This document shows, in pieces, positions 40,341 to 58,937 of a stretch of 64,000 nucleotides of DNA. The translations under genes were made by a program, and so were the position numbers. The notes below the pieces were generated by a model. It did not search any database, had not been told where the DNA came from, and worked only from the letters and a program-made list of their open reading frames with translations. This DNA comes from Nitrospirota bacterium (lineage in GTDB: Bacteria; Nitrospirota; Thermodesulfovibrionia; Thermodesulfovibrionales; UBA6898): contig JACRLO010000020.1 in NCBI GenBank assembly GCA_016235245.1, forward strand, positions 1-64,000. Direction: 5' to 3'. Position 1 is the first letter of the stretch, and each line of letters starts with the position of its first letter.

Positions 40341-40880
40341 TTATTTGATCCTGACGCCTATGTCATCGCCCTGTGAAGTAGCACTGTTTGCGGGTGTCTC
40401 AAGAAGGCCATTGGGTCCTGCCGAGATGATCCAGACCGGCTGACCGGTTGCGGCAAAGCTGTTTGCATTGGTCAGATAGATATTTCCCCAGGGATCGGCG
40501 GTCACCACTGCCATGTACGAGCCCTTCCAGTTCGCCCCGTAACAACCGTTTACATCGGCAGACAGATGAGAATCGTATGAACTCGGAGATGACTCGTCAT
40601 ATCCCAGGGCTCCAAGGTTGGCAAAGCTGTTGCCCAGCCCCATGAGAAGACTGACATTTGGCGTACAGCTGCCGTCCATTACAGGCCAGACTCCCGTATC
40701 CTTTCTGAAAACGAACATCGCAGAAGATATCGACTTGACGTCAGCCTTGGCCCTTGTAATTTTCGATTCATCGATCTCCTTGAATATCAGCGGCACAAGG
40801 ATACCGGCAAGTACGGCGATAATCCCCGCAACAACGATAACCTCGATCAGCGTAAAACCCTTCTGTTCCCTCAGTTTCAT
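40341..40880 (-). CDS. type II secretion-like pseudopilin (copy 1 of 2)
   Basis: This 179-residue prepilin has the type IV leader MKLREQKG with cleavage before Phe, then the hydrophobic FTLIEVIVVAGIIAVLAGILVPL helix and Glu at position 5 of the mature protein. A GspG-like globular part follows, with KADVKSISSAMFVFRKDTG, WPVMDG, YDSHLSADVNGCYGANWKGSY, DPWGNIYL and SAGPNGLLETP. The ATG at 40880 is the canonical short start. It is nearly identical to the gene at 41269 except in a central loop and a short stretch near the C-terminus. A promoter-like ACTATAAAAC lies about 35 bases upstream. Confidence 0.9.
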   Translation of the reverse strand: MKLREQKGFTLIEVIVVAGIIAVLAGILVPLIFKEIDESKITRAKADVKSISSAMFVFRKDTGVWPVMDGSCTPNVSLLMGLGNSFANLGALGYDESSPSSYDSHLSADVNGCYGANWKGSYMAVVTADPWGNIYLTNANSFAATGQPVWIISAGPNGLLETPANSATSQGDDIGVRIK

Positions 40881-41131
40881 AATACACTCCTCTTGGATAT
40901 TTCCCGTTTTATAGTAAATCGATCTTAGCATCAGCATCCATTATTTAACAGTTCCTTACGAACTGCATCATAAGGAGTATATCTGATATTCTATGGCGCT
41001 GAGCAACGGCAATGGAGGCGGGGAGCCCGGAAGGGCTGGTAACCAGAGGAAGCAGTGCACTCCAGCATCAACTCGTTGACAGGCATGATCAATCAAGACG
41101 AAATGGGGCTTAGGTGGCTTCTCAACAGGGA

Positions 41132-41268: not shown

Positions 41269-41814
41269 TCACTTAATTCTGACGCCTATATCATCGACAC
41301 CATCGGCAATAGCAATGCTGTTTGCGGGTGTCTCTAGAACGCCATTGGGCCCTGCCGAGATGATCCAGACCGGCTGACCGGTTGCGGCAAAACTGTTTGC
41401 ATTTGTCAGATAGGTATTCCCCCAGGGATCAGCGGTCACCACTGCCATGTACGAGCCCTTCCAGTTCGCCCCGTAACAGCCGTTCACATCGGCAGACAGA
41501 TGGGAATCGTATGAACTTGCTACAGCAGCGTCATATCCCAATGCTGCAAGGCCGGAAGGAAGATTTCCTGCCCCTGACAGAAAAGTAACATTAGGCGCAC
41601 AGCTGCCGTCCATTACAGGCCAGGCTCCTGTATCCTTCCTGAAAACGAACATCGCCGAAGATATCGACTTGACGTCTGCCTTGGCCCTTGTAATTTTCGA
41701 TTCGTCGATCTCCTTGAATATCAGAGGCACGAGGATACCGGCAAGCACGGCAATAATCCCAGCAACAACGATAACCTCGATCAGCGTAAAACCCTTCTGT
41801 TCCCTCAGCTTCAT
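41269..41814 (-). CDS. type II secretion-like pseudopilin (copy 2 of 2)
   Basis: This 181-residue prepilin has the same leader MKLREQKG, the same hydrophobic helix and the same conserved body as the gene at 40341. The first 50-odd residues appear identical. Differences cluster in the loop after MDGSC (SGAGNLPSGLAALGYDAA versus GLGNSFANLGALGYDESS) and near the C-terminus (NSIAIADGVDD versus NSATSQGDD). The ATG at 41814 has an AAGGAGAG ribosome-binding site. It is head-to-tail with copy 1 and divergent from the giant protein gene. No other type II secretion genes adjoin. Confidence 0.9.
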   Translation of the reverse strand: MKLREQKGFTLIEVIVVAGIIAVLAGILVPLIFKEIDESKITRAKADVKSISSAMFVFRKDTGAWPVMDGSCAPNVTFLSGAGNLPSGLAALGYDAAVASSYDSHLSADVNGCYGANWKGSYMAVVTADPWGNTYLTNANSFAATGQPVWIISAGPNGVLETPANSIAIADGVDDIGVRIK

Positions 41815-42156
41815 AACACTCTCCTTGGATATTTCCTGTTTATACTCAATCGATCGTAGCATCAGCATTATATTAATTATAAGTCGGTTTTTCAATCATA
41901 AAACTTTAATCGCTAAGTATGAACTGCCGCATGAGAATACTTCATGAGGAAAACTCGTTGTTCCGTATAATTCATTACATGCGAAGCAGGCTCTCAGGGG
42001 GCAGCCTCTGAAGAGGGGCTGGAATGCTGTCAGACTCGATAAACAGCGGTCTGAGGAAGAATTACCACTATGAAAACAGCATATACAGATGATATAATAT
42101 AAAATAAGACAAAGATAGTCCAGTTCCTTGCAATGAACTGAAGGGGGAGGTCATTA
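41815..42156. other. 342-base gap upstream of the giant surface protein
   Basis: The gap holds the divergent start regions of pseudopilin copy 2 and the giant gene. Seen are an upstream element shared with copy 1 (ATGCTGATGCTACGATCGAT), TATAAA-type boxes, a 39-base repeat at 42017-42055, a small stem AGTTC-GAACT near 42122-42139, and GGGGGAGG before the ATG at 42157. No other gene is present. Confidence 0.5.
42017..42055. repeat. intergenic repeat, copy 2
   Basis: This is the partner of the segment at 41132-41170 (31 of 39 identical). It contains CAGAC...GTCTG, which could form a short stem. It lies about 200 bases upstream of pseudopilin copy 2. Confidence 0.6.
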
Positions 42157-45100
42157 ATGTCCGGTCACTATGCTTATCTTTCAGATCCTGCGCATCCCAA
42201 AAAACGGTCAATGAATTCAAGAAGGGTTTCTTGCATATCGCTCTTGTGCCTCATACTGCTATTGGCTTTTTCATCCTTCGTCCATGCCTGGGCTCCGGCA
42301 GGTTACTCCGAATATTTCATTCCCGGGGACGAAGTCAATATGGAATCTGTGCTAAACGCCATGGACCTTACGATGACTGCAACTCCCAAGCAGGCCATGC
42401 ACTCCGTGATTACGGTTACTGCCTGGTCGGAAAATACAACGATATATTATGACCACTGGGAAAACGGTTACAACTTCGATCCGAATAACCCTGCAGCAAC
42501 GGCCGATGAGACTTACACACTCGCCACTGCCGGAGCCCAACGGATTTTTGAGTCAACCAGCATCCCAACCAACCCAAGAGGAACGACCACCTACTATGAC
42601 GGAAGTGACCACATATACGTGGCAGGCGGTCCGGTAACCGTCGTCCGTGCGAGCTGGATTCAGGCCACAGGAGTCGAAAACCAGGCTGTGGCTTGGGAGA
42701 TATATCCTGTTCAACCTCAGTTGACGACATATGTAATCCCCTTTGGTGAGGACCTTGGGGCTTCGCTGCCGGACTTCAGCCGGGTTTTCGTCTTTGTTCA
42801 GGCTACCGAGAACAACACTGTTGTGACATTCGACTTTAACGGTGATGGGACTAAGGATACCTTCTGCACTGACATAACTCGTACCGCATGTACTCCAGGT
42901 ACGCAGATCACGCTCAGCAAGGGACAATCGTTTCTCCTTGACAATTGGGCGCTTTCACCACAGGCGGCCCCCTATAATAAGGTCCATACGGGAATGGTGA
43001 TAACGGGGACTGAAACACTGCAGGTAAAGTTTGTCGCCGGTCAGGAACGCACTCCCACCGGGTGGATGGCCAGGGGATTCAGCGCATTCCCCCGTGGCTT
43101 CTGGACAAAAGACTACTATGCTCCTGTGGATAATGAACTGGTTAATACCGATTACTATCTCTACAACCCAAACACTGCTGCAATCACGGTAACATGGGAA
43201 ACCAGGACCACGACCGGTTCGCTCTCTATCCCTGCCGGCCAGACCGTATCCTACAGAACTTTGGCAGGGGATGTTCCAACCGGATCGGGAATCTATTTTA
43301 AGGGGTCCGATGTGTTTTGGGGAGTAGGCTCTGTTGATGCCGGCAACTACTATTATGAGTGGGGGTTCAGTCTCCTCCCTTCGACAATGATGTACAATGA
43401 GCACTATCTTGGTTGGGCACCGGACTGTTTACCCGTAGCAGCCGGTTGCACAAACAATGGTGTATTTCTTGTTCCTGCCCAGGACTATACTACGATCTTT
43501 GTAGATGTCGACAACAATGGCACGGTTGACCAGACCTATACCCTGAACCGTCTTCAGACACAGTATATCACGGCCCCATCCGGGAACCTCTCTATGGCGC
43601 ATATCTGGGCAACCGGACCATTCAGTATGGCATACGGGCAGAAAGGCAATACTACCTATCCCCAGGTCCCGGCCATGGATCTTGGCTATGTATCGCTTCC
43701 GGCAACTGATTTTATTTCAGCCGTCCTTACGGTACAAAAATCGGCTTCGCCTCAGGTCGTTCCAACTGCATCAGGCTCTGTAGCAACCTTCACGATCACG
43801 GCCAGTTCCCAGAAGTACACTGTGGACAACATCACCGTGACCGACACGCTTCCGCCAAATTGGCAGTATGTTACCGGCTCGACCACCATAACCAGGCCAG
43901 ACAAGACCACAGGGACAGCCAACCCGACCGTAACCGGGGCAGGGACTGCTGCTAACCCGTATGTATTGACATGGTCCAGCGCTGATCTTGGGACAAGCGG
44001 CACGATAGCGGAGAACCAGGAGGTCAAAATCGTATTCAATGCTCAGACAACAGCCGTCCTTGCCTCCGGAACGCTAAACCAGAACCGTGTCAAGGCAATC
44101 GGTACAAGGACCTTCGGCACGCCGAGCCAGACTCAGACATTTACTGCAACCGACTTTGCGTACGTTACTTCGGGGTTCTCGCAGATCACGAAAACTTCAG
44201 GGGCAGCTGACCCCGTATTCCCCGGCAACACAATCCCTTATACCGTAACGGTTTCCAACCCTGCGTCTGCAACATCTTCTCTGACAGGCGTCTCTATTTA
44301 CGATCCCCTGCCATCAGGGGTGAGCTATGTGGCCGGCAGCGCAGCAGCGACCTGTATTCTGCCGCGCAATGTGGCCGACTTTTTTGGCTCCACGAACTAT
44401 AACAACTCAAACGGCTCTGTGAGTTGGGCCGCCAACTCCTGGACCGAGTCGGACAGTTACGGCACCGGCCCTGGTGTAACCGGCTTAAACGGACTCGGTG
44501 GATATGTTTGGATCACGGGCGGCCAACTGCAGTTCAGATACATGCTCTCCACGGTGAGTGATAATTTTGCTACCAATGGCAGCTATACCGGCACAGATGG
44601 TTCCCGTAAGTGGATTGGGATAGGACCAGGAACCGTCTCGGTAACAAACGGCTCGCCTGCGGTGGTCGGCACGGGAACAACGTTCACAGGAGGACTCATA
44701 GGCACTGGGGATTCAATCACAATTTTAGGTGTAACATACACCATCTTGAGCGTCACTGACGCCACGCACCTCACGCTAACAACTAACTACGCGGGAACTA
44801 CCGGAACTGGTTTGGCCTATATCGCTCCTGTTGCATGGACAGAAGTCAACGATGATGGTTCAGCCGCTACCGTCGCTAACCAGCATATGTACGTCAGCGG
44901 CAACCGGCTTGTATTTGACCGTAATCCCAGCGCCGTTACTCCATTTTCGATCAGTAGGTCTGCCAATGTCGCGGGCGCTACCAGTGTAACAATCAGCTTT
45001 TTGCCTACTAACCGTGCCGGAGGCGCGGGCAGCGGCGAGGCAGTGGTTGCAGATTATAGTGTAGATGGAGGAGGCTATACGACACTCGGCACCTTTGACG

Positions 45101-48100
45101 GTGGAACAGCAGGTTGGAGCGGGATCACACAGACATACACTCTGAGCCCTTTTACCGGGAACTTTATCACTCTTCGGTTCCGTGCAACTGGGGCGTGGAA
45201 TAACAATAACGACGAAATATATATAGACAATGTTAACATCAGCTTTAATGCCCCGGCAAGCGCGGTAAATACCCAGATCAGGCGCACTGCCAGTCTTACC
45301 GGCGCCACAAGCGCCTGGCTGAACTTCAGCCCTTATAGTTCGACAGGACTCGGCGCTGGAGATACGCTTGTGGTAGAGGCAAGCAGCAGCGGCACGGCAG
45401 GTACATTTGTAACGTTGGCGACCTTCACCGGCGGCGTTCCTGATGTTGCGCCAGCCTATAATCTGACTCCCTATATCTCGGCCACTACCACCATCCAGTT
45501 CCGTGTAACAGGCGGCTTCAACACCGCAGGCCAGACGTTCAACCTGGATAATCTATCGATAGGCTACATTGTGACTCCGGCAACTACGGCCACGGTCGGC
45601 AGTCCGCCCAATTTCGTGGACAGTGCCTCGGCATGCAGCAGTATCCCGGCGGGGGGCTCACTCACCCTGACGTATAGTGTAACCGTGGATGACCCCTTCC
45701 CAACAGGTCAGACCTCAATCACAAACATTGCCTCAACAACATCGGCGCAGATTCCGATGGCCTTAACAGCCTCGGCCACAAATACCGTGCTTATCCCGAG
45801 TGCGCTGAGCGCAGGCACCGGCGGCAAGATCTGGCTTGATGCTGACAGAGACGGGGTACTGGATATCGGTGAACCCGGCATTCCAAACATTGAGGTCACG
45901 CTCAAGGACCGCTTCGGAACGCCGATTGCAACGACCATCACTGACGGCAACGGCCGTTATCTGTTTACCGGCGTCACGCCGGGGACGGGGTATTATGTCG
46001 AGGTAACTGACGGACTTTCATCAGGACTCTCTCAGTCCTTCCCCTATACCACAACACCAGGAGATCTGACGAACAACCGCAGCACCACCTTCACCTTGAC
46101 AGACGGCCAGATTTACACCTCTGCCGGCATCGGATATAGGGCTGCAGCCGGAACAGCGACCTTCGGTGACCAGGTCTGGGTAGATGCCAATGCCAATGGG
46201 GTGCGCGACTCCGGCGAAATTGGCCTCGGCGGGGTAACGGTCAAGCTCTACCAGGACCGTAACAGCGACGACAGGCTGGATATCCTGACCGATTTACCTG
46301 ACGGTGTCGGGACCGTCTCAGCGACAAACAGCTCAACCGCCGTAGTTGGCTCAGGGACAGCATTCTCCGCTCTGAATGCCGGCGATGCTATCACGATTGC
46401 AGGCGTTGCATACACGATTCAGAGCGTCACCGATGCAACACATCTGACCCTGACGGCGAATTACACGGGGACAACGGGAGGCGGCAAGGCATATACAATG
46501 CCTGTCGCAACGGTCAGTAACCCTGACGGCACATACCTTTTCACCGGGGCGGCAGCTTCGGGCACGCAGACCTACTTCGTCTCGGCCGCCACCCCTTCCG
46601 GCTACACAGCAACAACCGGGTCGACGAACCACCGGTTTACCAATGTCGCGGCGGGAAGCACACTGCTCATTGCCGATTTCGGCTTTAACAGAACGACAAC
46701 TACCTATTCGATAAAAGACCGCGTATGGACAGACTCAAATGGCGATGGACTCTTCTCGGGTGAGAGCGGTCTTGCCGGGGTTACCGTCGAACTGCACGAT
46801 GCAAGCCTCAATGTCATCGGCACGACGATTACTGCGGCTGACGGCACATTCATCTTCAGCGGCTTGACCGGCGGTGGTGCCGATTATACTGTGCGCATCA
46901 ACGATACGAGCGGCGTCCTGCTGGACTACTACGGCACAACCTCGTATTCTCTTGCGCTTAAGCGCCCCGAAAGTAATCTCACAACCAGTATTGATCGCGT
47001 GGCTACCCCGCCGCCAAGTTTCGGTTTCCGGCCGCTGCGCAGCATCGGTGATACGATCTTCAGCGATCTGTTGGGTGGCACCAGCGGTGTTCAGGATGCC
47101 GGAGAGCCGGGGATCGCAGGGGTTGTCGTCAGCCTCTACCGCAACATTGCCCCTCTCGGGACGTTTGACGGGAGCGACACCCTTATCAGCACTGTAACGA
47201 CTGATGCGTCAGGGCAGTATCTGTTTTCGGGTCTTGCCGATGGGGAGTATATTGTAAGCGTGCCGGTTCCTGCAGGCTACAGTTTCATCCCAAACGGCGT
47301 CGTTAACCCTGACCTTGACGGCAATCCGGCAAACGGAATTCAAAACAGGGTTACCATAACAGGCGGAGTAAGCGACTTAAACAAAGACTTCGGTTTCCAG
47401 GCCTCCAGCCCCCGTACCGTCTCCGGAACCGTATGGGATGACCTTGACGCAGACGGTGTCATAGACGGCGGCGAAGCCGGACTTGCGGGCGTTACGATCG
47501 ACATCCTCTCGGGGAGCACTGTTGTGGCCACGGTCACTACCAACGCATCGGGTAACTACACCGCCCCGGGGCTCGCCTCAGGTATCTACACGGTGCGCGT
47601 CACAGATACGACAAGCGTTCTCACTGACTACATCTCTACCTTCGAAAAGACCGAGAGCACCACCGGTCCCTTTAACTTTCAGGAGTCCGTAAACCTGACC
47701 GGCGGCGACGTTGCTGATGTAATATTCGGGTTCAAGGTGCCCACGCCCACGCTTGTGACCCTTTCGGATTTCAGCGCGTATAGCGATAAGGGCAGGTTTG
47801 TCGTGCAGTGGAAGACATCTTCCGAGACAGACACTGCAGGATTCTATCTGCAGCGGCTCGATGAAAAGACCGGCAGATACAGGCAGATCAACAGCAGCCT
47901 CCTGCCTGCGCTGATTACTTCCCCGCAGGGCGGCACCTATAGTCTCATCGACAACGGCGCGTCTTTGACCAGGAGTAATACCTATCTGCTTATGGAGATT
48001 GAAGGCAAAGGCAGAAAAAATGCCTACGGACCTTTCACGATAGCGGCAGGAGCAGGCAATGCAGCAGAAAGCCAACAGAGCAGGAAGGCCGGATGGGAAC

Positions 48101-50307
48101 GTGAAGGGGAGATGGCCATTACGGACGGCAGCACAGGAAATACCGCTGCCGACGAAGTATCGGACTATACGCGTGCAGGAAAAGCGATTCCTGCTGAAAA
48201 ACAGAAAGTTCTGGATGCCATGAAAAAGGCAAGAGCCGCCTCCGACCTCCTCCAGAAGCAGAAGACCGGCAATATGGTCAAGATCCCGGTACACAAAGAC
48301 GGGCTTTACTATCTGGAGTCCGCAGAGATCTCGTCGCTGCTTGGCATGGCTGAGACTAAAGTCAGACAGCTTATTAAGTCCGGGAACCTGGCACTAAGCA
48401 ATCAGGGCAATATAGTCGCCTATATACCGGCTGATGATATGGCAGGACTGTTCTTCTTCGGTCAGGGGATAGACAGCTTGTACACAAAAGAAAATATCTA
48501 CTGGCTCTATAAGGGCAAGGGACAGCAGATGGGCAGAGTGGAAGGTGTTGGTCCAGCACCTTCAGGATACAGCGCAGTTACGGAGACAGTCCATATTGAA
48601 GAGGATAAAGTTGCCGCGCCGGTGCTTGCCCATGGCCCGGAATCTGACTACTGGTTCTGGGATTATATAATAGGTGGCAACCCATCCCTGGGGACAAAGC
48701 GTTTCGAACTTCAGGTCTTTGGTGTTGCTGACGTATCAACATCAGCCGCGCTGAGTGTCAGACTTCACGGCCTGACCAGCACCGGCGCAGCGAACGACCA
48801 TCATGTCACGATCAGCTTAAACGGGACGGTTATCGGAGAAGACCGATGGAAAGGCGCTGAGGAGCGTCTCGTCAATCTGAATTTCAGTCAGAGCCTCTTA
48901 CATGGCGGAGCAAATTCTATCGAGGTCAAGGGCCTGCTTGATGCAGGTGTTCCCTACAGCATATTTTATCTGGATTCTTTTGACCTGACCTATGAAAAGG
49001 TATTGGAAGCCCATGACAATTCACTTATGTTCAGGGCAGAAGGCGCTCTGCCTCTGACAGTGTATGGCTTTACACAGCCTGATCTTTTTGTCCTCGATGT
49101 AACTGACCCGGACTGGCCGATCTTCAATATGGCAGCGACTATCGACGGCTCAGACGGAAATTACCATCTCAGTTTTACGCCCACACCAGGCGCACGGTAT
49201 CTGGTGACAGCCTCCGATGCCGCAGCGCCTGTCAATGCCTGGGCAGACAGCCCTTCCACACTCTTATCCCGGCATAACAGGGCTGATTATATCATCATTA
49301 CCACAAAGGAACTTGCTGCAGCTGCCGGGGAACTTGCCCATTATCGGGAGGCTCAGGGACTAAAAACCTTGGTTGCAGATCTGGAAGATATCATGGATGA
49401 ATTCAATTATGGCATCTCAAACCCTGAGGCCATTCATGGTTTCCTCGCTTACGCCTATACCAACTGGAAGCAGGCACCGAAATATGTACTGCTTGCAGGA
49501 CACGGGACCTATGATTACAGAGATAACATGGGTATCGGAGACAATCTGGTGCCGACCCTGATGGCTGAAACGCCACAGGTTATTTCCGCCTCGGACAACC
49601 TTTTTGCAGACATGGACGGTGACCATGTCCCTGATATTGCAATCGGAAGGCTTCCTGTTCTGACCGCGGAAGAATTGCGTGGAGTAATCGGCAAGATTAT
49701 ATCCTATGAGAGCAATGCAGGCAGCCGTGTGATAATGCTTGCGGACAATCCGGATGACGGCGGCAATTTCCCCGCTGACAGCGATCAGATCGCAGCGCTT
49801 GTTCCGGCGGCATACCCGGTGTCCAGGATATATCTTTCTGCGTATACGACGGCTCAGGCCCGGCAGCTTCTCTTCGATGAAATAAGCAGGGGGCCGGTGC
49901 TGTTAAACTACACGGGCCATGCAGGCATGGATCGTCTGGCCAGCGAGGGGCTGCTGCGGGTGAGCGATGTGGCTTCGCTTCAAAACAGCAGAAAACCTTT
50001 TGTTCTGGCAGGCATGACATGCGCTGTGGGCAACTTTGCCCTGGCGGGATATAATTCATTGGGCGAGGCCCTTATGACAAAAAACCCGGGAGGCGCCGTG
50101 GCTGTCTGGGCTCCGTCCGGACTCTCGTATAATCACCTGTCAAAAATTCTGAACGAGCATTTCTTCCGGGGTTCATTCGGAAACGGAAGCGTTACGTTAG
50201 GAGATGCCGTATTAAGGGCATTCAGAAATTATCACACAACCGGCAGTCCTGTGTATATTATGGATATGTTCAACCTGCAGGGTGACCCGGCTTTAAGAAT
50301 CTGGTAA
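42157..50307 (+). CDS. giant secreted protein with DUF11 and SdrD_B-type domains and a C-terminal C25 (gingipain-like) protease
   Basis: The 2716-residue protein has a signal peptide (CISLLCLILLLAFSSFVHAW). Residues about 40-520 form a region resembling the adhesion module found before DUF11 repeats. Two DUF11-like domains follow, the second (from about 670) interrupted after YVAGSAAATC and resumed at GSPPNFVDSASACSS. The insertion holds galactose-binding-like beta domains (FDRNPSAVTPFSIS and a second, related one). Five SdrD_B-type domains follow (GGKIWLDADRDGVLDIGEPG, FGDQVWVDANANGVRDSGE and so on), then a fibronectin-like part and the C25 protease. The catalytic pair is H2588 (NYTGHAG) and C2622 (GMTCAVG). 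No sorting signal is seen at the C-terminus. The gene ends 13 bases before the PqqD-like gene. Confidence 0.86.
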   Translation: MSGHYAYLSDPAHPKKRSMNSRRVSCISLLCLILLLAFSSFVHAWAPAGYSEYFIPGDEVNMESVLNAMDLTMTATPKQAMHSVITVTAWSENTTIYYDHWENGYNFDPNNPAATADETYTLATAGAQRIFESTSIPTNPRGTTTYYDGSDHIYVAGGPVTVVRASWIQATGVENQAVAWEIYPVQPQLTTYVIPFGEDLGASLPDFSRVFVFVQATENNTVVTFDFNGDGTKDTFCTDITRTACTPGTQITLSKGQSFLLDNWALSPQAAPYNKVHTGMVITGTETLQVKFVAGQERTPTGWMARGFSAFPRGFWTKDYYAPVDNELVNTDYYLYNPNTAAITVTWETRTTTGSLSIPAGQTVSYRTLAGDVPTGSGIYFKGSDVFWGVGSVDAGNYYYEWGFSLLPSTMMYNEHYLGWAPDCLPVAAGCTNNGVFLVPAQDYTTIFVDVDNNGTVDQTYTLNRLQTQYITAPSGNLSMAHIWATGPFSMAYGQKGNTTYPQVPAMDLGYVSLPATDFISAVLTVQKSASPQVVPTASGSVATFTITASSQKYTVDNITVTDTLPPNWQYVTGSTTITRPDKTTGTANPTVTGAGTAANPYVLTWSSADLGTSGTIAENQEVKIVFNAQTTAVLASGTLNQNRVKAIGTRTFGTPSQTQTFTATDFAYVTSGFSQITKTSGAADPVFPGNTIPYTVTVSNPASATSSLTGVSIYDPLPSGVSYVAGSAAATCILPRNVADFFGSTNYNNSNGSVSWAANSWTESDSYGTGPGVTGLNGLGGYVWITGGQLQFRYMLSTVSDNFATNGSYTGTDGSRKWIGIGPGTVSVTNGSPAVVGTGTTFTGGLIGTGDSITILGVTYTILSVTDATHLTLTTNYAGTTGTGLAYIAPVAWTEVNDDGSAATVANQHMYVSGNRLVFDRNPSAVTPFSISRSANVAGATSVTISFLPTNRAGGAGSGEAVVADYSVDGGGYTTLGTFDGGTAGWSGITQTYTLSPFTGNFITLRFRATGAWNNNNDEIYIDNVNISFNAPASAVNTQIRRTASLTGATSAWLNFSPYSSTGLGAGDTLVVEASSSGTAGTFVTLATFTGGVPDVAPAYNLTPYISATTTIQFRVTGGFNTAGQTFNLDNLSIGYIVTPATTATVGSPPNFVDSASACSSIPAGGSLTLTYSVTVDDPFPTGQTSITNIASTTSAQIPMALTASATNTVLIPSALSAGTGGKIWLDADRDGVLDIGEPGIPNIEVTLKDRFGTPIATTITDGNGRYLFTGVTPGTGYYVEVTDGLSSGLSQSFPYTTTPGDLTNNRSTTFTLTDGQIYTSAGIGYRAAAGTATFGDQVWVDANANGVRDSGEIGLGGVTVKLYQDRNSDDRLDILTDLPDGVGTVSATNSSTAVVGSGTAFSALNAGDAITIAGVAYTIQSVTDATHLTLTANYTGTTGGGKAYTMPVATVSNPDGTYLFTGAAASGTQTYFVSAATPSGYTATTGSTNHRFTNVAAGSTLLIADFGFNRTTTTYSIKDRVWTDSNGDGLFSGESGLAGVTVELHDASLNVIGTTITAADGTFIFSGLTGGGADYTVRINDTSGVLLDYYGTTSYSLALKRPESNLTTSIDRVATPPPSFGFRPLRSIGDTIFSDLLGGTSGVQDAGEPGIAGVVVSLYRNIAPLGTFDGSDTLISTVTTDASGQYLFSGLADGEYIVSVPVPAGYSFIPNGVVNPDLDGNPANGIQNRVTITGGVSDLNKDFGFQASSPRTVSGTVWDDLDADGVIDGGEAGLAGVTIDILSGSTVVATVTTNASGNYTAPGLASGIYTVRVTDTTSVLTDYISTFEKTESTTGPFNFQESVNLTGGDVADVIFGFKVPTPTLVTLSDFSAYSDKGRFVVQWKTSSETDTAGFYLQRLDEKTGRYRQINSSLLPALITSPQGGTYSLIDNGASLTRSNTYLLMEIEGKGRKNAYGPFTIAAGAGNAAESQQSRKAGWEREGEMAITDGSTGNTAADEVSDYTRAGKAIPAEKQKVLDAMKKARAASDLLQKQKTGNMVKIPVHKDGLYYLESAEISSLLGMAETKVRQLIKSGNLALSNQGNIVAYIPADDMAGLFFFGQGIDSLYTKENIYWLYKGKGQQMGRVEGVGPAPSGYSAVTETVHIEEDKVAAPVLAHGPESDYWFWDYIIGGNPSLGTKRFELQVFGVADVSTSAALSVRLHGLTSTGAANDHHVTISLNGTVIGEDRWKGAEERLVNLNFSQSLLHGGANSIEVKGLLDAGVPYSIFYLDSFDLTYEKVLEAHDNSLMFRAEGALPLTVYGFTQPDLFVLDVTDPDWPIFNMAATIDGSDGNYHLSFTPTPGARYLVTASDAAAPVNAWADSPSTLLSRHNRADYIIITTKELAAAAGELAHYREAQGLKTLVADLEDIMDEFNYGISNPEAIHGFLAYAYTNWKQAPKYVLLAGHGTYDYRDNMGIGDNLVPTLMAETPQVISASDNLFADMDGDHVPDIAIGRLPVLTAEELRGVIGKIISYESNAGSRVIMLADNPDDGGNFPADSDQIAALVPAAYPVSRIYLSAYTTAQARQLLFDEISRGPVLLNYTGHAGMDRLASEGLLRVSDVASLQNSRKPFVLAGMTCAVGNFALAGYNSLGEALMTKNPGGAVAVWAPSGLSYNHLSKILNEHFFRGSFGNGSVTLGDAVLRAFRNYHTTGSPVYIMDMFNLQGDPALRIW
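44629..44823 (+). repeat. inserted small beta-domain, copy 1 (within the giant gene)
   Basis: This 65-residue segment (GTVSVTNGSPAVVGTGTTF ... SVTDATHLTLTTNYAGTTGTG) interrupts a beta domain between SRKWIGIGP and VAWTEVNDDG. The same type of domain occurs again at 46309-46500, and similar modules are common in phage tail and surface proteins. Confidence 0.65.
46309..46500 (+). repeat. inserted small beta-domain, copy 2 (within the giant gene)
   Basis: This 64-residue segment (GTVSATNSSTAVVGSGTAF ... SVTDATHLTLTANYTGTTGGG) interrupts an SdrD_B-type domain between DDRLDILTDLPDGV and PVATVSNPDGTYLFTG. It is the second copy of the module at 44629. Confidence 0.65.
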
Positions 50308-50320: not shown

Positions 50321-50629
50321 ATGAATAATCAGGGCGCCCAGTTGCAGGAAAAGGTCTTTGTAAAGAATGAGGATATCGTCACCCGCAAGATTACCGGCGA
50401 GTTGTTCATTGTTCCGGTGAGGGGAAAGCTGGCAGACATGCAGAGGATCTTTACTCTCAATCCGGTTGCGGAATACATATGGCATTCCCTTGACGGCCTG
50501 ACACGCATCGAAGATATCCGCAAAGGCATCCTGGCGACCTATGACGTCGATGAACAACAGATTGATTCTGATATCAGGGATTTTATCGCAGAGCTGTTGG
50601 AAGCGGACTTAATCAAAGAGCGAGCGTGA
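50321..50629 (+). CDS. PqqD-family peptide-binding protein (RiPP recognition element)
   Basis: This 102-residue protein is a PqqD-like winged-helix domain, which binds the leader of a precursor peptide and presents it to a modifying enzyme. Evidence is the strand-turn region ITGELFIVPVRGKLADMQRIF, the PqqD hallmark LNPVAEYIWHSLDGLTRIEDI (Asn, Trp) and a helix VDEQQIDSDIRDFIAELLEADLI. It lies 13 bases after the giant gene and overlaps the radical SAM gene by four bases (GTGA), so the two are coupled. Confidence 0.87.
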   Translation: MNNQGAQLQEKVFVKNEDIVTRKITGELFIVPVRGKLADMQRIFTLNPVAEYIWHSLDGLTRIEDIRKGILATYDVDEQQIDSDIRDFIAELLEADLIKERA

Positions 50630-51729
50630 ATATGGATTGCCCGGAAACTGTTTTCACTGACAACACAAATTATCTCAGGGACTTCACCGCAAGATCGGCC
50701 AGACTTCGGGTGCCGCTTTCCGGAAGCCTCGATCTCACGCATCGCTGCAACCTCCGGTGCCTCCACTGTTATACCGGTGATCGTTCCGGGGATATGCCCA
50801 TCGCAGAGATGGATACCGGGAGGATATTGTCACTTCTGGACGAGATCTGTGATGCCGGCTGTCTCTATCTTCTGCTGACCGGCGGAGAACCCCTGCTGAG
50901 GGAGGATTTCCCGGAAATTTATCGTTATGCAAAGGAAAAAGGTTTTTTGATAACCGTATTTACGAACGGAACGCTGATAACAGATAAAATCGGAACGCTT
51001 TTTGAGGAGCTGCCGCCCCGCACCGTCGAAATAAGCCTGTACGGTGCTACCGCGCCGACGTATGAGAAAATTACGGGGGTAAAGGGCTCATACCGTCAAT
51101 GCCTTTCCGGCATCAGGAAACTGCTGGAGCAAAAGATAAACGTCAGACTGAAGACCATTCTTATGGCTCCTAACCGTCACGAGTTTTTTGCAATAGAAGG
51201 AATGGCAAAGGACTTTGGGGTGAAATTCCGCTTTGATGCAGCCATATTCCCCCGTTTAAACGGGGACCCGTCTCCGGTCAATCTCAGAGTTTCACCTGAG
51301 GAGGCGGTCGACAAGGAGTTTTCAGATCATGAAAGGGTAGCCCTCTGGGAAGCGTCTCTAAAAAATTATCGTCATGGATCTGCCACTGATGATCTTTACC
51401 ACTGCGGGGCCGGGGTTACCGGTTTCCATATTGACCCCTGCGGAAGTCTGCGCCCCTGTCTCATGGCGACCACCCTTTCCTATGACCTTCAGAAAGGAGG
51501 CTTTTCCCCTGGCTGGGAAGCAATAACGTCCCGCAGCAGAGAGAAAAAAGCAGACCGGGACTTCACCTGTAATACCTGTGATAAGAAACTGCTCTGCGGT
51601 TATTGTCCTGCTTTTTTTGAGCTTGAAAACAGGGATGCTCAGGTGCGTTCCGAATACCTTTGCGCCATGGGGAACACCCGCAGCAGACAATTGCAGCATA
51701 TCAATACAAAAGGAGCTCGGCATGGATAA
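50626..51729 (+). CDS. radical SAM/SPASM peptide-modifying enzyme
   Basis: This 367-residue radical SAM protein carries the cluster motif C41-x3-C45-x2-C48 (RCNLRCLHC), the glycine-rich LTGGEPLLREDFPEI, FTNGTLIT and SLYGATAPTYE for SAM binding. A C-terminal SPASM-type region has further cysteines (HCGAG, PCGSLRPC, CNTCDKKLLCGYC, YLCAMG) for auxiliary clusters. The GTG at 50626 overlaps the PqqD stop; an in-frame ATG at 50632 is also possible. With a PqqD partner and a small cysteine peptide next to it, it is a likely RiPP maturase making thioether or C-C crosslinks. The chemistry is inferred. Confidence 0.88.
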   Translation: MNMDCPETVFTDNTNYLRDFTARSARLRVPLSGSLDLTHRCNLRCLHCYTGDRSGDMPIAEMDTGRILSLLDEICDAGCLYLLLTGGEPLLREDFPEIYRYAKEKGFLITVFTNGTLITDKIGTLFEELPPRTVEISLYGATAPTYEKITGVKGSYRQCLSGIRKLLEQKINVRLKTILMAPNRHEFFAIEGMAKDFGVKFRFDAAIFPRLNGDPSPVNLRVSPEEAVDKEFSDHERVALWEASLKNYRHGSATDDLYHCGAGVTGFHIDPCGSLRPCLMATTLSYDLQKGGFSPGWEAITSRSREKKADRDFTCNTCDKKLLCGYCPAFFELENRDAQVRSEYLCAMGNTRSRQLQHINTKGARHG

Positions 51730-51892
51730 GAGCAGCAGCGAAATGAAAGACAAGCAGGCCTACGAAAAACCAAGGCTCAGGGTAATCGAGCTGGTCGCTG
51801 AAGAAGTTATGGGCATCGGATGCAAAACGGTATCCGGCCCGGGATCCGGCAGCGTTTGTGCCGCTGTAGGGTGTTTTGAAATCGGCTCCTGA
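51722..51892 (+). CDS. candidate RiPP precursor peptide (56 residues)
   Basis: This small gene is easy to miss. It starts with an ATG overlapping the radical SAM stop by eight bases and has a strong AAAGGAG ribosome-binding site six bases before. The predicted peptide has a charged leader (KQAYEKPRLRVIELVAEEVMG) and a core that begins near GCK at residue 33-35. The core is rich in Gly and Ser, with cysteines at C34, C46 and C51 and a C-terminal Ser (IGS). The EKPRLRVIEL...EEVMGIGC pattern is typical of leader-core boundaries in radical SAM-modified precursors. The product is unknown. It lies between the maturase and the HPr-kinase-like gene. Confidence 0.72.
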   Translation: MDKSSSEMKDKQAYEKPRLRVIELVAEEVMGIGCKTVSGPGSGSVCAAVGCFEIGS

Positions 51893-51917: not shown

Positions 51918-52844
51918 ATGGAACGTGAGCAGACGGAAAATGTTATGCAGATGGAAATCGCCGGTGTTAATTTTGCCATCAGCTGCCGGCATCCGCTCTC
52001 GGTCGACAAGCTTGCAGGGATGTACCGGCAGTTCATACAGGGGGCCATCCCTCCCGGGGGGGATATAAACGTCAGCGTCAGCATTGAGACCGGTACTATG
52101 CCAGATACCCGGCAGATGACGAAGATCTTTGATACCGGGCGGTCGTGGTCCATGTTTAAGCGCGACAATGATTATTTCCTTTCGCTCAATGTTCCCACAA
52201 CAGACGGTCAGGCAATCTGGCTCGCAGCCTTTGATATCCATTGTGCCACCATTTCAATTTACTGCAGTGACCTTTTCCTGAACAGCGAGAGTGGTCGTAC
52301 AACGCTGTCCACTCCTCTCAACTATCCACTGGATCAGCTCCTGCTCATGTATATACTGGCAGGGAGAGGCGGCGCATTGCTTCATGCCGCAGGACTCTGC
52401 ACGGACAAAAGGGGATACATCTTCCCCGGCCGCTCTGGTGCAGGCAAAAGCACCATTTCACGTCTTTTCCTCGGGAAATCCGGAGCAGAGATGTTCAGCG
52501 ACGATCGTATGATAGTCAGAAAAATAGACAACACGTTCAGGGCGTTCGGTACGCCCTGGGCAGGCGACGCCAGTATCGCCGAAAATAAGAGCGTTCTGCT
52601 CGACAGGATCTTCTTTATTCATCAGGCGAAGACCAATCTGCTGAGAGAGCTGACGCCGAAAGAAGCTATCGAACGACTCATGCCGGTGACCTCTATCCCC
52701 TGGTATGACGAGACGGCATTTCAAAACATTCTTGCGTTTTGCGAAGACCTGGTTTTGAATATACCTGCGTATGAACTGCATTTCATGCCTGACCGTTCCG
52801 TAGTCACCTTTATTGAAAATTTCGCAGCCCGAAACTCGGTCTGA
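51918..52844 (+). CDS. HPr-kinase-like protein
   Basis: This 308-residue protein resembles the HprK family C-terminal kinase domain in RiPP clusters. Its P-loop is FPGRSGAGKSTISRLFLGK near residue 190, followed by EMFSDDRMIVRK, a metal-binding Asp motif. The N-terminal half is a different fold (beta-rich, for example WSMFKRDNDYFLSLN). Kinases of this type in lasso peptide clusters (PadeK, ThcoK) phosphorylate the C-terminal Ser of the precursor. The ATG at 51918 is preferred over the TTG at 51876 that would overlap the precursor gene, though no clear ribosome-binding site fits, and later ATGs at 51945 and 51951 are possible. Confidence 0.78.
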   Translation: MEREQTENVMQMEIAGVNFAISCRHPLSVDKLAGMYRQFIQGAIPPGGDINVSVSIETGTMPDTRQMTKIFDTGRSWSMFKRDNDYFLSLNVPTTDGQAIWLAAFDIHCATISIYCSDLFLNSESGRTTLSTPLNYPLDQLLLMYILAGRGGALLHAAGLCTDKRGYIFPGRSGAGKSTISRLFLGKSGAEMFSDDRMIVRKIDNTFRAFGTPWAGDASIAENKSVLLDRIFFIHQAKTNLLRELTPKEAIERLMPVTSIPWYDETAFQNILAFCEDLVLNIPAYELHFMPDRSVVTFIENFAARNSV

Positions 52845-52903: not shown

Positions 52904-53371
52904 ATGCATTACAAAACAGCCGACCATTTCGGGGAACTCGCCGGAGCCTTGCTCAAAGAGGGGGTACAACTTTCATTCCAGGCAGGCGGAAGGTCCATGT
53001 CTCCCTTCATCCAGGACAAAGAAACGGTCATCATTGAACCACCTTCAAGGACATTGCGCGTCGGTGACGTAATCCTGTTTAAGACTGAACGCAATCAGCT
53101 GATATTCCATCGCATTGTGGGGAAAAAGAGGGACGGGTATCTCACGAGAGGCGACGCTGCCTCTCATCCCGACGGGATCGTGCCGCATCGCGCAGTACTC
53201 GGCAGGGCTGTCCGTGTTGTTGGCGGACTGAACTTTCATCTCTGGTTTCCTCTTGGTGCAATCGTGGCTCATGCGCTGAAGCTCAGAAGACATACGGCGC
53301 TCTTCACCATGCTCAGGATACCGGGGAACCTGCTATTGCGCAGACTTCGTTTAAGGGACAATCCTCAATAG
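52904..53371 (+). CDS. S26-type signal peptidase-like protein
   Basis: This 155-residue protein has the signal peptidase I/S26 core: GRSMSPFI with nucleophile S31, LRVGDVILFK, IFHRIVG with H69 as the likely general base (as in SipW/ER-type peptidases) and the box YLTRGDAASHPDG with the conserved Asp. The usual N-terminal membrane anchor is missing and a basic C-terminal tail (LLLRRLRLRDNPQ) follows a hydrophobic stretch. In RiPP loci such a peptidase may remove the leader peptide or release the product. It starts 59 bases after the kinase gene on the same strand. Confidence 0.8.
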   Translation: MHYKTADHFGELAGALLKEGVQLSFQAGGRSMSPFIQDKETVIIEPPSRTLRVGDVILFKTERNQLIFHRIVGKKRDGYLTRGDAASHPDGIVPHRAVLGRAVRVVGGLNFHLWFPLGAIVAHALKLRRHTALFTMLRIPGNLLLRRLRLRDNPQ

Positions 53372-54096: not shown

Positions 54097-54208
54097 AAGC
54101 GAGCCATGTCGTATATGCTGCTTCGCATTTTCCTGAACAGGTTATGCCCTTTCGTTATTTCCCCTGCTGTATTGGTAATTTGTCAGATAATATGAGATAA
54201 TATTGGTC

Positions 54209-55732
54209 ATGTATCCATTTACCAGAATAAAAATAAGAGCAGCGTATTTATTCGTTGCAGTTCTCTTCAATACGTGCGCACTCCTGTCAGCCCAGCCTGT
54301 CAGCGCAGCTGAGACGGTCATATCGTCAGCGGAAAACACCGTTGGCGGGCAGGCGGCTCAGCTCGAAATGGGCCGATTCAGCGATATTGAGACCGCAAAG
54401 GCATTTCTGAAAAAGCTCGTTGAAAGTGGGTACACCGGCGGCATAACGGAAGAAAAAAATAGCAGCGGTCAGGGAGAGTATCAGGTCTATGTATTATTGC
54501 CGGTAGCCGCAGTCGGGGACGCCGGCTCAGAGAGTATCTCATGGTCTGTCCTGGGGGGAAAAGGCAAGAACGTACATGCCGCCCTAAGCCTCACCGGCAT
54601 CTTCACAGACAATGCCTTCAACGCAAACCAGGACAAACAGAGCGATTTTTCTATGTTTCTGACTCCGGAGCTCTGGTTGAATCTGCCGCACACTGACAAG
54701 GATGTTTCCTACGAAAGCGTTTCGCCACGTTCTGCAGGAGGACGGCTCCTTAATACGCTGACGGGCGAACGGCTCTACGGGTACCAGGCAACACTCTATT
54801 ACCGTACCGATCTGCCGCTGATCACGGCGAAGACCTCACCATACGGCAACACCGCTTCACACAGGTTTGCAGCCGGCATTGCCTTTGTAGGCAGCAGGGT
54901 GTCGCTCGGCATATCTGACCAGTTCGATAAGTCCTATCAGGAGAGGGAGGCTGGCCAGATCATCTCAACGGATGCCCGCGACCGCTATGATGCAAACCGG
55001 TTCAGCGCCGCAGCAGCCTATGATACAGGAAATCGCATTCTGCTCAGCCTCGACTATGTAAATTTTATCACCAATTACAGCAGCGACACGGCACGTGCCC
55101 TCGACCGCCGTGACTTTGGCATAACGCCGGCGCTTCGGTACCGGCTCACACCGAAGATCAACCTGTTGGCAGAATATTCATTCTATGGCATTTCCTACGA
55201 CAGCGATGACACGCTGGATAGCACAGAGCACTATCTCATGGGAGGGCTCGAATGGAAACTTACAGAAAAGTCGTTCGGCAGGATCAAGGCTGGTTACGAA
55301 CTTAAGGACTTTAAGCACGGCGACCGGTATGGGGGATATAGCTTTGAACTTCAGGCAGAGCACAGACTGACGCCAAAGACACAGCTGTCGCTCTCCGCCT
55401 ATCGTAAAACCAATGAAATGCGGGTGGCCGGAACTGCCTTTGTCGTCTCAACAGGGGAGCACCTTTCACTGACGCATATGATAACCTCAAAGATAACCGG
55501 AGCGCTCATGCTTTCCTTCGAAAACGACAAGAACAAGGGGATTTCTCCTGCTTCGATCTCGCAAACGACCGTCAACGACAGGATCTATCAGGCCGGCATA
55601 GAGGTTCAGTATGCCTTCCGCAGATGGCTGAGGGCCCGAGCCGAATACCTTTTCACCACAAAAAACTCCTCGAATCCTGCTTTGGAATACCGCTCCAATA
55701 CATTGCTCCTGGGCCTTACCGGGTCATTCTGA
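54209..55732 (+). CDS. outer-membrane beta-barrel protein of the polysaccharide locus
   Basis: This 507-residue protein has a signal peptide (FVAVLFNTCALLSAQPVSA). A short SPOR-like segment (LEMGRFSDIETAKAFLKKLVESGY, followed by YQVYVLLPVA) comes next. From about residue 110 it is a repetitive amphipathic beta pattern typical of an outer-membrane barrel, ending with the aromatic-last signal (SNTLLLGLTGSF). Barrels of this kind often precede Wza/Wzc genes in Gram-negative exopolysaccharide loci. The ATG at 54209 is preferred to the TTG six bases earlier. Confidence 0.8.
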   Translation: MYPFTRIKIRAAYLFVAVLFNTCALLSAQPVSAAETVISSAENTVGGQAAQLEMGRFSDIETAKAFLKKLVESGYTGGITEEKNSSGQGEYQVYVLLPVAAVGDAGSESISWSVLGGKGKNVHAALSLTGIFTDNAFNANQDKQSDFSMFLTPELWLNLPHTDKDVSYESVSPRSAGGRLLNTLTGERLYGYQATLYYRTDLPLITAKTSPYGNTASHRFAAGIAFVGSRVSLGISDQFDKSYQEREAGQIISTDARDRYDANRFSAAAAYDTGNRILLSLDYVNFITNYSSDTARALDRRDFGITPALRYRLTPKINLLAEYSFYGISYDSDDTLDSTEHYLMGGLEWKLTEKSFGRIKAGYELKDFKHGDRYGGYSFELQAEHRLTPKTQLSLSAYRKTNEMRVAGTAFVVSTGEHLSLTHMITSKITGALMLSFENDKNKGISPASISQTTVNDRIYQAGIEVQYAFRRWLRARAEYLFTTKNSSNPALEYRSNTLLLGLTGSF

Positions 55733-55809
55733 AGACCGCTCTGTCGCGTTTCCTCATCGGCCTGCAGCAGATGCTTTAAGCGGCTAAAATGGTCTATAAT
55801 TATAGCGTT

Positions 55810-56613
55810 ATGAAAAAAATAACCTGCATCTGCGTTATCACCCTTCTCCTCGGATTTTTCAGTGCAGCGGCATACGCTGAGCATGATTACATCATAGGTC
55901 CTGATGATGTGATCAGGGTGACAGTTTACAACCACCCTGACCTCGCGGCAACAGATCGCATAAGCGGTGAGGGGGTCATCATGCTGCCGCTGATCGGCGA
56001 TGTAAAGCTCTCCGGCCTTTCGGTCGAGCAGGCCGCTAAAAAAATCAGCCTGCTCCTGAGCGACGGCTATATCATGGACCCGAAGGTCTCGGTCTTTGTT
56101 GTGGAGTTCCGCAGCAAAAAAGTAATGATCATGGGGCAGGTCTTTCGCCCCGGCGTACTGACGCTCAGCGGCAGTACAACCTTCCTCGAACTGCTCACAC
56201 TCGCCGGAGGGCTGACCAAGGAGGCAGGCGACAAGGCTACCATAAAGCGCAAGTCTGCCGATGCAGGCAAGGAAGGGGAAGGTCTCATCACAATCGACCT
56301 CAGAAGGCTCATCGAACAGGGCGACGCCTCACTCGATGTCACGCTTATGGACAACGACAGCATTTATATCTCAAAGGCAGGCGTTTTCTACATCACCGGC
56401 GAGATAAAAAAACCTGATGCGTACCGGCATGAGGAGGGTCTCACCGTGATCAAGGCTGCGACCATGGCCGGCGGGTTCTCCGACAAGGCAGCCCCGGGAA
56501 GAATCAAGATCATCAGAAAAGTGGACAAAAAAGAGAAGGTGATCGAACGGACGGGCATGGACGAACTCGTCCTTCCCGACGACATTATTATCGTGCCGGA
56601 GAGTTTTTTCTGA
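55810..56613 (+). CDS. Wza-like polysaccharide export protein
   Basis: This 267-residue periplasmic/outer-membrane protein has a signal peptide (CICVITLLLGFFSAAAYA). A Poly_export domain follows (YIIGPDDVIRVTVYNHPDLA, then ISGEGVIMLPLIGDVKLSGL), then two SLBB domains (VMIMGQVFRPGVLTL and FYITGEIKKPDAYRH). No lipobox is visible, so unlike E. coli Wza it may not be lipidated. A TATAAT at 55795-55800 lies only nine bases before the ATG, which may give a very short leader. It overlaps the next gene by one base (TGATG), so export and kinase are coupled. Confidence 0.9.
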   Translation: MKKITCICVITLLLGFFSAAAYAEHDYIIGPDDVIRVTVYNHPDLAATDRISGEGVIMLPLIGDVKLSGLSVEQAAKKISLLLSDGYIMDPKVSVFVVEFRSKKVMIMGQVFRPGVLTLSGSTTFLELLTLAGGLTKEAGDKATIKRKSADAGKEGEGLITIDLRRLIEQGDASLDVTLMDNDSIYISKAGVFYITGEIKKPDAYRHEEGLTVIKAATMAGGFSDKAAPGRIKIIRKVDKKEKVIERTGMDELVLPDDIIIVPESFF

Positions 56614-58829
56614 TGTTCGAAGATAAAGAAATTCATCTGCGTGATTACCTGAATGTCGTATTAAAGCACCGGCATAAGGCCGTTCAATTCTTCGCCATTA
56701 TTTTTGCGCTGACGCTGCTTGTCACGTTTTCGACCACCCCTATTTATGTTGCGACCACAAAGGTCCTGATCGAAAAAAGCGAACCGGCAAATCTTTCACT
56801 CAACCCCTACGCCATGATGTATGACCCTGATTTCAGTGAAACCCAATTCCAGCTCATCAAGAGCTTCTCCGTTGCCCAGCGGGTCGTCAGGATGCTGGGG
56901 CTCGGCCAGCGTGCCAATATTGCAGCAGGCAGCGAAACCGGCACAAATATCGTTACCGGGACATTTAATTGGTTTCGCGACCTCATCTCAACGGTCCTTC
57001 ATATCGGAGGAGCAAAGCCGGTTCCCTCACCCTCTGATCCGGCGTTGGCAGTAACGCGGGAGGAAGACCCCCTCAAGCTCTACCAGCAGGCCAAAATAAT
57101 CAGCAGTGCCATTACGGTCACTCCGGTAAAAAACAGCAAGATCGTCAATATCAGTTTCGCGTCGCCTGACCCCAAGATGGCTTCGCTGATCGTCAACACC
57201 GTTGCCAAGGCTTATACCGATGAGGTACTCGACATAAAGATGGGGTCTTCCCAATACGCACTAAAGTGGCTCACCGAGAAGGCAGATGAGGAGCGGGCAC
57301 GCCTTAACAAGACCGAAAAAGAGCTCCAGGAATACATGCGCGACAAAGATATCGCGACCCTTGAAAATAAAGTAACGATGGTGCCTGAGCGCATGTCCGA
57401 AATAGCCGTCAAGCTTGCGCAGTCTGAAACAAAGCGGAAAGAGCTGGAGACTCTCTATAATGCGGTGAAGGTATACGCGGTAAACCCTGAGGGCGCTGAC
57501 GAAATTCCGGCCATTTCGGCTGATCCGGTCATGCAGTCCCTGAGGTCCCAGATCCAGAAGGCAGAGCAGACCGTTGCCGAACTTTCACAGAAATACGGTC
57601 AGCGTCATCCCGCTATGGTCAGCGCGGCCTCTGAACTGAGTGGGCTCAGGGATAAGAAACGGGAGCAGGTCAAGCGCGTGGTCGCAACGATCAGGAATGA
57701 ATACGAAATCGCACGGTCAGGAGAGGAAAACCTGCGCAGACTGGCAGGTCAGGCAAAGTCTGAAACCCTGAGTCTTGGAGAAAAATTTGTCCAGTACGGC
57801 GTGCTTAAACGGGAGGCCGAAACGAGCAGGGAACTCTTCGGAGCGATCGTCAAGCGAATCAAGGAGCAGGGGATAACACAGGACATTAAGACCGTTACGG
57901 TCTGGGTAATCGAAAAGGCCGAAGTGCCTGACAGCCCTGCCAAACCGAACAAGTTCAGGAACATCCTCCTGGGCCTTGTTATCGGTCTGATGGGCGGTGT
58001 CGGACTCGCCTTCTTTATCGAGTATCTCGACAACACGGTCAAGTCAGCAGAGGATATCGAGCAGCGCTTCGATGTCCCGGTCCTCGGGATCATAGAACTG
58101 CTCGACAAGGAGAAGTGCCCGGCCGATGATATTGTACTGCGCGAGCCCCATGCCAATATCACCGAAAACTATCGGGCGGTAAGGACAAGCATCATGCTCT
58201 CTACCGCTGATAAGCCACCGAAGCACATTCTGGTAACGAGCATTGCTCCGCAGGAAGGCAAAACGACCACCGCTGTAAACCTCGCGGCAATCCTGGCGCA
58301 GTCCGGCCATAACGTTCTGCTCATTGATGCAGACCTGCGTAAGCCGAGACTTCGCCGGATTTTCGGGATCGAGAGCGATTCCGGATTAAGCACCTATCTT
58401 GCCGGCACGTCTGACATCGAATTCTTCACCCCGAAAGGGATCGAGCATCTGCAGGTCGTACCTTCCGGTCCTGTGCCGCCGAATCCCTCCGAGCTTATCG
58501 GATCAAGGCACTTGCAGGACCTGATTACCTCATTGGAAGAAAAATTTGATTTTATCGTCTGGGACTCCCCGCCGCTCTTTGCCGTTGCCGAGAGTCTTGT
58601 TCTGAGCAAAATGCTGAGTGGAACAATCATTGTTACACGAGCAGGCAAGACCACATACAAAGAGCTCGAGCGCGGTATCAAATCCATACATGACATCGAA
58701 GCACGTATTCTGGGTATTGTCATCAACGGGCTGAATATCAAGGAAAACATGCGGTATAACTACCGTTACTACAGTTACTACGGTGCAGCGGAACATGAAC
58801 CGCCGGAAAAGCTCCCGCATGACTCCTGA
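56613..58829 (+). CDS. Wzc-like tyrosine autokinase and chain-length regulator
   Basis: This 738-residue inner-membrane protein has a Wzz domain with a first membrane segment (HRHKAVQFFAIIFALTLLV) and a long periplasmic coiled coil. A second membrane segment (ILLGLVIGLMGGVGLAFFIEY, near residue 450) and a cytoplasmic BY-kinase follow. The kinase has Walker A APQEGKTTTAVNLA, Walker A' VLLIDADLRKPR and Walker B FDFIVWDSPPLF. The C-terminal Tyr-rich tail (RYNYRYYSYYG) is the autophosphorylation cluster. It controls polymerisation and export with the upstream Wza-like protein. Confidence 0.92.
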   Translation: MFEDKEIHLRDYLNVVLKHRHKAVQFFAIIFALTLLVTFSTTPIYVATTKVLIEKSEPANLSLNPYAMMYDPDFSETQFQLIKSFSVAQRVVRMLGLGQRANIAAGSETGTNIVTGTFNWFRDLISTVLHIGGAKPVPSPSDPALAVTREEDPLKLYQQAKIISSAITVTPVKNSKIVNISFASPDPKMASLIVNTVAKAYTDEVLDIKMGSSQYALKWLTEKADEERARLNKTEKELQEYMRDKDIATLENKVTMVPERMSEIAVKLAQSETKRKELETLYNAVKVYAVNPEGADEIPAISADPVMQSLRSQIQKAEQTVAELSQKYGQRHPAMVSAASELSGLRDKKREQVKRVVATIRNEYEIARSGEENLRRLAGQAKSETLSLGEKFVQYGVLKREAETSRELFGAIVKRIKEQGITQDIKTVTVWVIEKAEVPDSPAKPNKFRNILLGLVIGLMGGVGLAFFIEYLDNTVKSAEDIEQRFDVPVLGIIELLDKEKCPADDIVLREPHANITENYRAVRTSIMLSTADKPPKHILVTSIAPQEGKTTTAVNLAAILAQSGHNVLLIDADLRKPRLRRIFGIESDSGLSTYLAGTSDIEFFTPKGIEHLQVVPSGPVPPNPSELIGSRHLQDLITSLEEKFDFIVWDSPPLFAVAESLVLSKMLSGTIIVTRAGKTTYKELERGIKSIHDIEARILGIVINGLNIKENMRYNYRYYSYYGAAEHEPPEKLPHDS

Positions 58830-58937
58830 TTCCAGACTACATGCAAAATGATGCCTGCGCGGCAGGCAGGTAACCGCGAAGGTCTGCGCCTGATATGGAG
58901 ACGATCTGACGACGAAGCCAACGCAGTTAACGTTTAG

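Follow-up and report, generated by a model that had tools for sequence, protein, structure and literature searches.

Phosphorylation of RiPPs is already known in two settings, at the C-terminus in lasso peptides and at a core serine in the linear polyphosphorylated peptides (LPPs) of Bacillota. The kinases of lasso-peptide clusters phosphorylate the C-terminal Ser, and their His-Lys-Asp-Asp motif was found to be essential by mutagenesis (reviewed in PMC9266682). The LPP clusters have been described more recently (Nat Commun 2026, PMC13381572). They combine a discrete RiPP recognition element (RRE), a YxxP leader, an HprK-like kinase and an archaeal-type signal peptidase used as leader peptidase; they often carry an NTP transferase and occur in polysaccharide loci. 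The LPP leader follows the consensus YxxPxVLxHQxIxFETxxS, and [YW]xxPx[LVIAFY] is given in the same study as the RRE-binding leader consensus for lasso and LPP systems. The kinase LppK, which is the primary modification enzyme of LPPs, phosphorylates Ser3 of the 45-residue core, on its N-terminal side (PMC13381572). The term 'radical SAM' is absent from that paper, LPPs being described without a radical SAM enzyme.

The window analysed here is a stretch of 64,000 nucleotides from a Nitrospirota bacterium. Genes for a PqqD-like protein, a radical SAM/SPASM enzyme, a short precursor, an HprK-like kinase and an S24/S26 peptidase follow one another in this order, all on the + strand. The PqqD-like protein (50321..50629, 102 residues) is a discrete RRE (Pfam PF05402, 4.8e-16); among NCBIfam models it comes nearest to SynChlorMet ScmD and the lasso PqqD chaperones, all below cut-off. 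The radical SAM/SPASM maturase (50632..51729, PF04055, 1.8e-21) comprises 365 residues, with an alternative GTG start at 50626. The end of its gene is overlapped by 8 bases by the precursor ORF (51722..51892, 56 residues plus stop, product MDKSSSEMKDKQAYEKPRLRVIELVAEEVMGIGCKTVSGPGSGSVCAAVGCFEIGS), the ATG of which is preceded by a likely ribosome binding site, AAGGAG, at 51710..51715. The precursor ends in CFEIGS and matches no curated family in Pfam and NCBIfam profile searches. The kinase (308 residues, 51918..52844) starts at ATG 51918, with an alternative TTG start at 51876, and lies downstream of this IGS-ending frame, as an earlier note on this DNA had read. The archaeal-type S24/S26 enzyme, a predicted leader peptidase, comes next (52904..53371; PF00717; TIGR02228, 47.0 bits for a cut-off of 51.85). 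Upstream of the PqqD-like gene, on the same strand, a 2716-residue protein is encoded that has SdrD repeats and, at its C-terminus, a peptidase C25 (PorU-like) domain (42157..50307, PF01364, 6.5e-83).

With a probability of about 0.8, these genes form a RiPP cluster in which the kinase phosphorylates the C-terminal Ser56 and the radical SAM enzyme acts on the Cys core. The PqqD-like protein would bind the [YW]xxP leader of the 56-residue precursor and present the latter to the three enzymes. One or more phosphates would be moved by the HprK-like kinase from a nucleoside triphosphate to the Ser56 hydroxyl, while the radical SAM/SPASM enzyme would modify the three-Cys core, probably making a Cys-based linkage. 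The leader would be cut off by the archaeal-type S26 peptidase, probably just before the conserved Cys-Lys. The sequences establish the gene set, the constancy of the terminal hydroxyl residue, the active site and predicted fold of the kinase, and the intact active sites of the radical SAM enzyme and the peptidase. We infer from them that phosphorylation takes place and at which step, what becomes of the Cys residues, where the leader is cut and what the product does.

One line of evidence is the last residue of the precursor. The codon of Ser56, the predicted phosphate acceptor, is TCC (51887..51889, + strand). A profile was built from the leader alone (up to GCK), and is therefore blind to the C-terminus. 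The kinase was sought in 101 relatives, 32 of which were positive, and the leader profile was run on the loci so obtained. Leader-anchored matches from 395 genomes of the phylum and 345 Desulfobacterota genomes were treated in the same way, as were 80 loci of GTDB genomes anchored on the kinase; a genome-collection scan gave relatives with the kinase alignment and none with the precursor by itself. Once duplicates had been removed, 105 distinct precursors within 3 kb of a kinase were counted; a 106th listed match, an antisense ORF of the window judged spurious (11.3 bits), was left out. All 105 end in Ser (100) or Thr (5), the five non-Ser ends being Thr without exception. The same holds for the redundancy-reduced set (less than 60% identity over the last 35 residues), with 75 Ser and 5 Thr among 80. 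By comparison, of 405 PqqD, radical SAM, kinase and S26 proteins encoded in these loci, 64 (16%) have a C-terminal Ser/Thr. P values computed for such counts take no account of relatedness and are descriptive. The Ser codons are TCN in 74 and AGY in 26 of the 100 Ser-ending precursors; both codon boxes are thus used, and it is the residue, not the DNA, that is held constant. The residues ahead of it vary (GS, NKS, LAS, TTQS, RQS and ISST endings). When positions are numbered from the C-terminus, none in the core is as conserved as the last one, with an entropy of 0.43 bits against 2.5–3.9 at positions -3 to -15. The family extends over Nitrospirota, Desulfobacterota, Aminicenantes, Omnitrophota, Planctomycetota, Chloroflexota and other phyla. 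Four further precursors, missed by the profile and found by eye, all end in Ser. One precursor (locus L135, 3305-3402) is cut to the leader plus PGS; nearly all of the Cys core is lost and the terminal Ser is kept.

Such constancy could have another origin. The terminal Gly-Ser might be a recognition tag for the radical SAM enzyme, the S26 peptidase, the C25 protein or an exporter, in which case the kinase would act on other Ser/Thr residues of the core or have a regulatory role. The action of LppK, a kinase of the same broad class, on core Ser3 rather than on the C-terminus (PMC13381572) fits with this explanation, and implies that the site is not deducible from the kinase class alone; a preference for Gly is seen at the penultimate position too (85 of 106 listed matches). 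However, no internal Ser/Thr position, counted from the C-terminus, comes near the conservation of the last residue. Ser/Thr is moreover kept even though S26 is unseen in 23 and C25 in 64 of 120 loci, some of them cut, and replacement by Thr only suggests that the hydroxyl is what counts. The tag appears rather unlikely, and phosphorylation of the terminal hydroxyl is the preferred reading of these ends.

A link with the kinase is also apparent from the leader-anchored searches, in which the kinase was not used and yet adjoins the precursor at almost all loci. The same leader without a kinase was sought in the 395 genomes of the phylum and the 345 Desulfobacterota genomes, which gave no good contrast set. 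One leader match with no adjacent kinase is a pseudogene-like orphan ending in SF (L099), two others are second copies with the kinase elsewhere in the genome, and another sits at a contig end that is reached by a kinase fragment. Among kinase-linked members, there is one true exception to the terminal Ser/Thr, on a gammaproteobacterial contig (L154). This locus has an RRE and a kinase and no radical SAM gene, and its precursor has a Cys-less core ending in SKP. A lasso-like cluster adjoins it, made of a PqqD protein, a cyclase, an HprK-like kinase, a methyltransferase and a nucleotidyltransferase-like protein; the kinase of that cluster aligns over the same His-Lys-Asp-Asp motif.

The window kinase can be assigned to the HprK/PEPCK phosphotransferase superfamily, as judged from its predicted fold, its Walker A Lys, its His and its Asp pair. 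The active-site segment (52383..52505, + strand) includes His156 (52383), Lys177 (52446), Asp195 (52500) and Asp196 (52503). Each of 108 kinases compared has the His, the Walker Lys and the first Asp, the second acidic position being Asp in 89 and Glu in 19. The AlphaFold2 model (pLDDT 94, pTM 0.91) has the PEPCK/HprK fold (Foldseek E 4e-7), and VIA-align superimposes 245 residues on PEPCK 2pc9 with a Z of 13.3 and an rmsd of 5.3. HprK itself is not among the best 50 VIA-align matches listed, and the relation to HprK rests on a sequence profile: a profile of 71 kinases matches an HprK of solved structure (E 8.2e-5) exactly over the His, the Walker A motif and the DD pair. The best NCBIfam match, HprK_rel_B (1e-9), is under its family cut-off, and the scores remain far below the thresholds of HprK/P proper, TIGR00679 (12.2 for 240 bits), and of the HprK-related A and B families, TIGR04352 (23.8 for 200) and TIGR04355 (38.0 for 200). 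Since no curated HprK cut-off is reached, one may wonder whether this protein is a pseudo-kinase or a nucleotide-binding chaperone, the conserved Ser then being structural. This is very improbable in view of the three invariant residues and of a predicted fold which is that of an active phosphotransferase superfamily.

The earlier note had proposed phosphorylation of the terminal Ser, to be abandoned if orthologous precursors lacked this residue or if homologous kinases lacked active-site residues. Both are kept, in 105 of 105 kinase-linked precursors (as Ser or Thr) and in 108 of 108 kinases respectively, which supports the proposal by inference. The same note had envisaged two chemistries on one peptide, cysteine-based crosslinks and a terminal phosphate. 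Its terminal-phosphate half is supported; for possible crosslinks, the support consists of the intact SPASM enzyme and of the three Cys conserved in the core. Candidate classes for such a linkage are sactipeptides and ranthipeptides, in which Cys forms a thioether to an alpha or to a beta/gamma carbon, respectively. A Ser/Thr end, together with a kinase of a type known to phosphorylate such an end, makes it probable that two peptide-modifying chemistries meet in this family.

The remaining parts of the precursor are consistent with this scheme. The leader motif YEKPRL (51761..51778, + strand) fits the lasso/LPP consensus [YW]xxPx[LVIAFY]; the full motif is found in 94 of 105 homologous leaders against 2.4% of shuffled ones, and nine of the 11 homologues without it carry a WxxPxC variant. 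The predicted core, CKTVSGPGSGSVCAAVGCFEIGS (51821..51889, + strand), contains three Cys, its start being set by the presumed cleavage site. A three-Cys core is present in 96 of the 105 precursors and a Cys-Lys start in 100, and across the family the last Cys lies at a distance of 4 to 13 residues from the C-terminal one. The residue ahead of the first core Cys is small (G, A, S, T or N) in 96 of 105 homologues, which would suit cleavage there by the S26 enzyme.

Recurrence of the partner genes was counted over 120 distinct kinase loci, many of them cut by contig ends, so that the counts are lower bounds. A radical SAM gene is present in at least 107, PqqD in at least 100 and S26 in at least 97 of them. 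The CX3CX2C motif and seven SPASM-type cysteines are kept in 64 or 65 of 65 radical SAM homologues. By this cysteine pattern, the window protein can be classed as a radical SAM/SPASM peptide maturase; it reaches no maturase equivalog in NCBIfam. In the S26 peptidase, Ser31, His69 and Asp84 are each kept in 84 of 85 homologues. Unusual fusions or lengths are seen in related clusters, such as a kinase-containing frame of 649 residues (L170, 6780-8729) and an S26-nucleotidyltransferase fusion (L152, 8774-10384).

A C25-domain protein is encoded in at least 56 of the 120 kinase loci, its most frequent place being immediately before the PqqD gene, and an uncharacterised nucleotidyltransferase (PF14907) in at least 27. 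The giant SdrD-repeat/C25 (PorU-like) protein, usually found upstream of PqqD across phyla, might help to process the peptide, or be its substrate or target. Genes for exopolysaccharide export (Wza/Wzz-type, beta-barrel, Wzy-like; 54203-61331) adjoin the window cluster, and similar genes lie near nine of the related clusters in other phyla; such a neighbourhood has been reported for LPP clusters. Two very similar pilin-like ORFs stand in tandem on the - strand at 40341-40937 and 41269-41895 (REQKGFTLIEVIVVAGIIAVLAGILVPLIF). The nucleotidyltransferase, polysaccharide and C25 neighbours suggest a role at the cell surface. The terminal hydroxyl could anchor a larger group, such as a nucleotide, a hexose or a surface polysaccharide, with the phosphate as first link, which would extend the phosphorylation reading. 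There is a precedent in pseudomycoidin, where PsmN adds hexoses to the phospho-Ser after the action of PsmK (PMC9266682), and both the recurrent PF14907 protein and the Wza/Wzz genes would agree with it. Nevertheless, no nucleotidyltransferase adjoins the window cluster and the elaboration is hypothetical; this extension looks possible and somewhat doubtful.

Taken at the level of the family, it appears likely that a cross-phylum group of RiPPs undergoes, on one and the same peptide, radical SAM modification of a Cys core and (poly)phosphorylation of the C-terminal Ser/Thr by an HprK-like kinase, with the leader cut off by an archaeal-type signal peptidase; this set of steps is undescribed in the literature searched. 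No family with a radical SAM enzyme and HprK in one RiPP cluster is described in the open-access literature searched, most subscription papers lying outside it, and the novelty is thus provisional. If true, RiPP phosphorylation would here be joined by radical SAM chemistry, two demanding chemistries acting on one peptide, and would extend to many little-studied and mostly anaerobic phyla. It also offers a convenient sequence handle (a last residue Ser/Thr, a [YW]xxP leader, a GCK junction and three Cys), with a substrate and a site that are directly testable.

Among cassettes with comparable genes, SynChlorMet (TIGR04248-TIGR04251) also has PqqD-like, radical SAM/SPASM and HprK-like (ScmC) proteins. 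It differs in having two radical SAM proteins, and its Cys-containing precursor candidates have N, A or G as last residue, so that ending in Ser is not shared by all radical SAM peptides that come with an HprK-like protein. Membership of the window cluster in SynChlorMet was rejected on these precursor ends and on the scores for ScmC (24.6 bits for a cut-off of 125), ScmD (32.4 for 100), ScmE (77.9 for 400) and ScmF (71.1 for 400). In one locus (L119, 8978-15332), a SynChlorMet cassette with ScmE, ScmD, ScmF and ScmC above cut-off adjoins a member of the present family; it includes a Cys-rich precursor candidate, MEWEKPKL...GGAN (13892-14212), and similar candidates occur in two other loci.

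The product of the window cluster is most likely an uncharacterised phosphorylated radical-SAM RiPP, related to the paeninodin-type lasso peptides and to the LPP family. Its kinase shares the fold and the active-site segment of HprK/P and PEP carboxykinase, with low identity and with a peptide C-terminus as predicted substrate. The paeninodin-type lasso systems (PadeK, ThcoK, SyanK, PsmK) have in common with it an HprK-like kinase with His-Lys-Asp-Asp, a conserved C-terminal Ser, an RRE with its leader motif and, in some cases, a nucleotidyltransferase. Neither a B2 transglutaminase-like peptidase nor an asparagine-synthetase-like lasso cyclase is found among the genes adjoining the window precursor, and in their place the present family has an S26 peptidase together with a radical SAM/SPASM enzyme. 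With LPPs, by comparison with the published descriptions of LppB, LppK and LppS, it shares the RRE, the HprK-like kinase and an archaeal-type SpI peptidase with Ser-His-Asp, as well as a recurrent nucleotidyltransferase and, in the window, Wza/Wzz-type genes after the cluster. In contrast to LPPs, the present family has a radical SAM enzyme (in at least 107 of 120 loci) and a Cys core, its leader reads YxKP...EE...GCK, and its conserved Ser lies at the C-terminus instead of the N-terminal part of the core.
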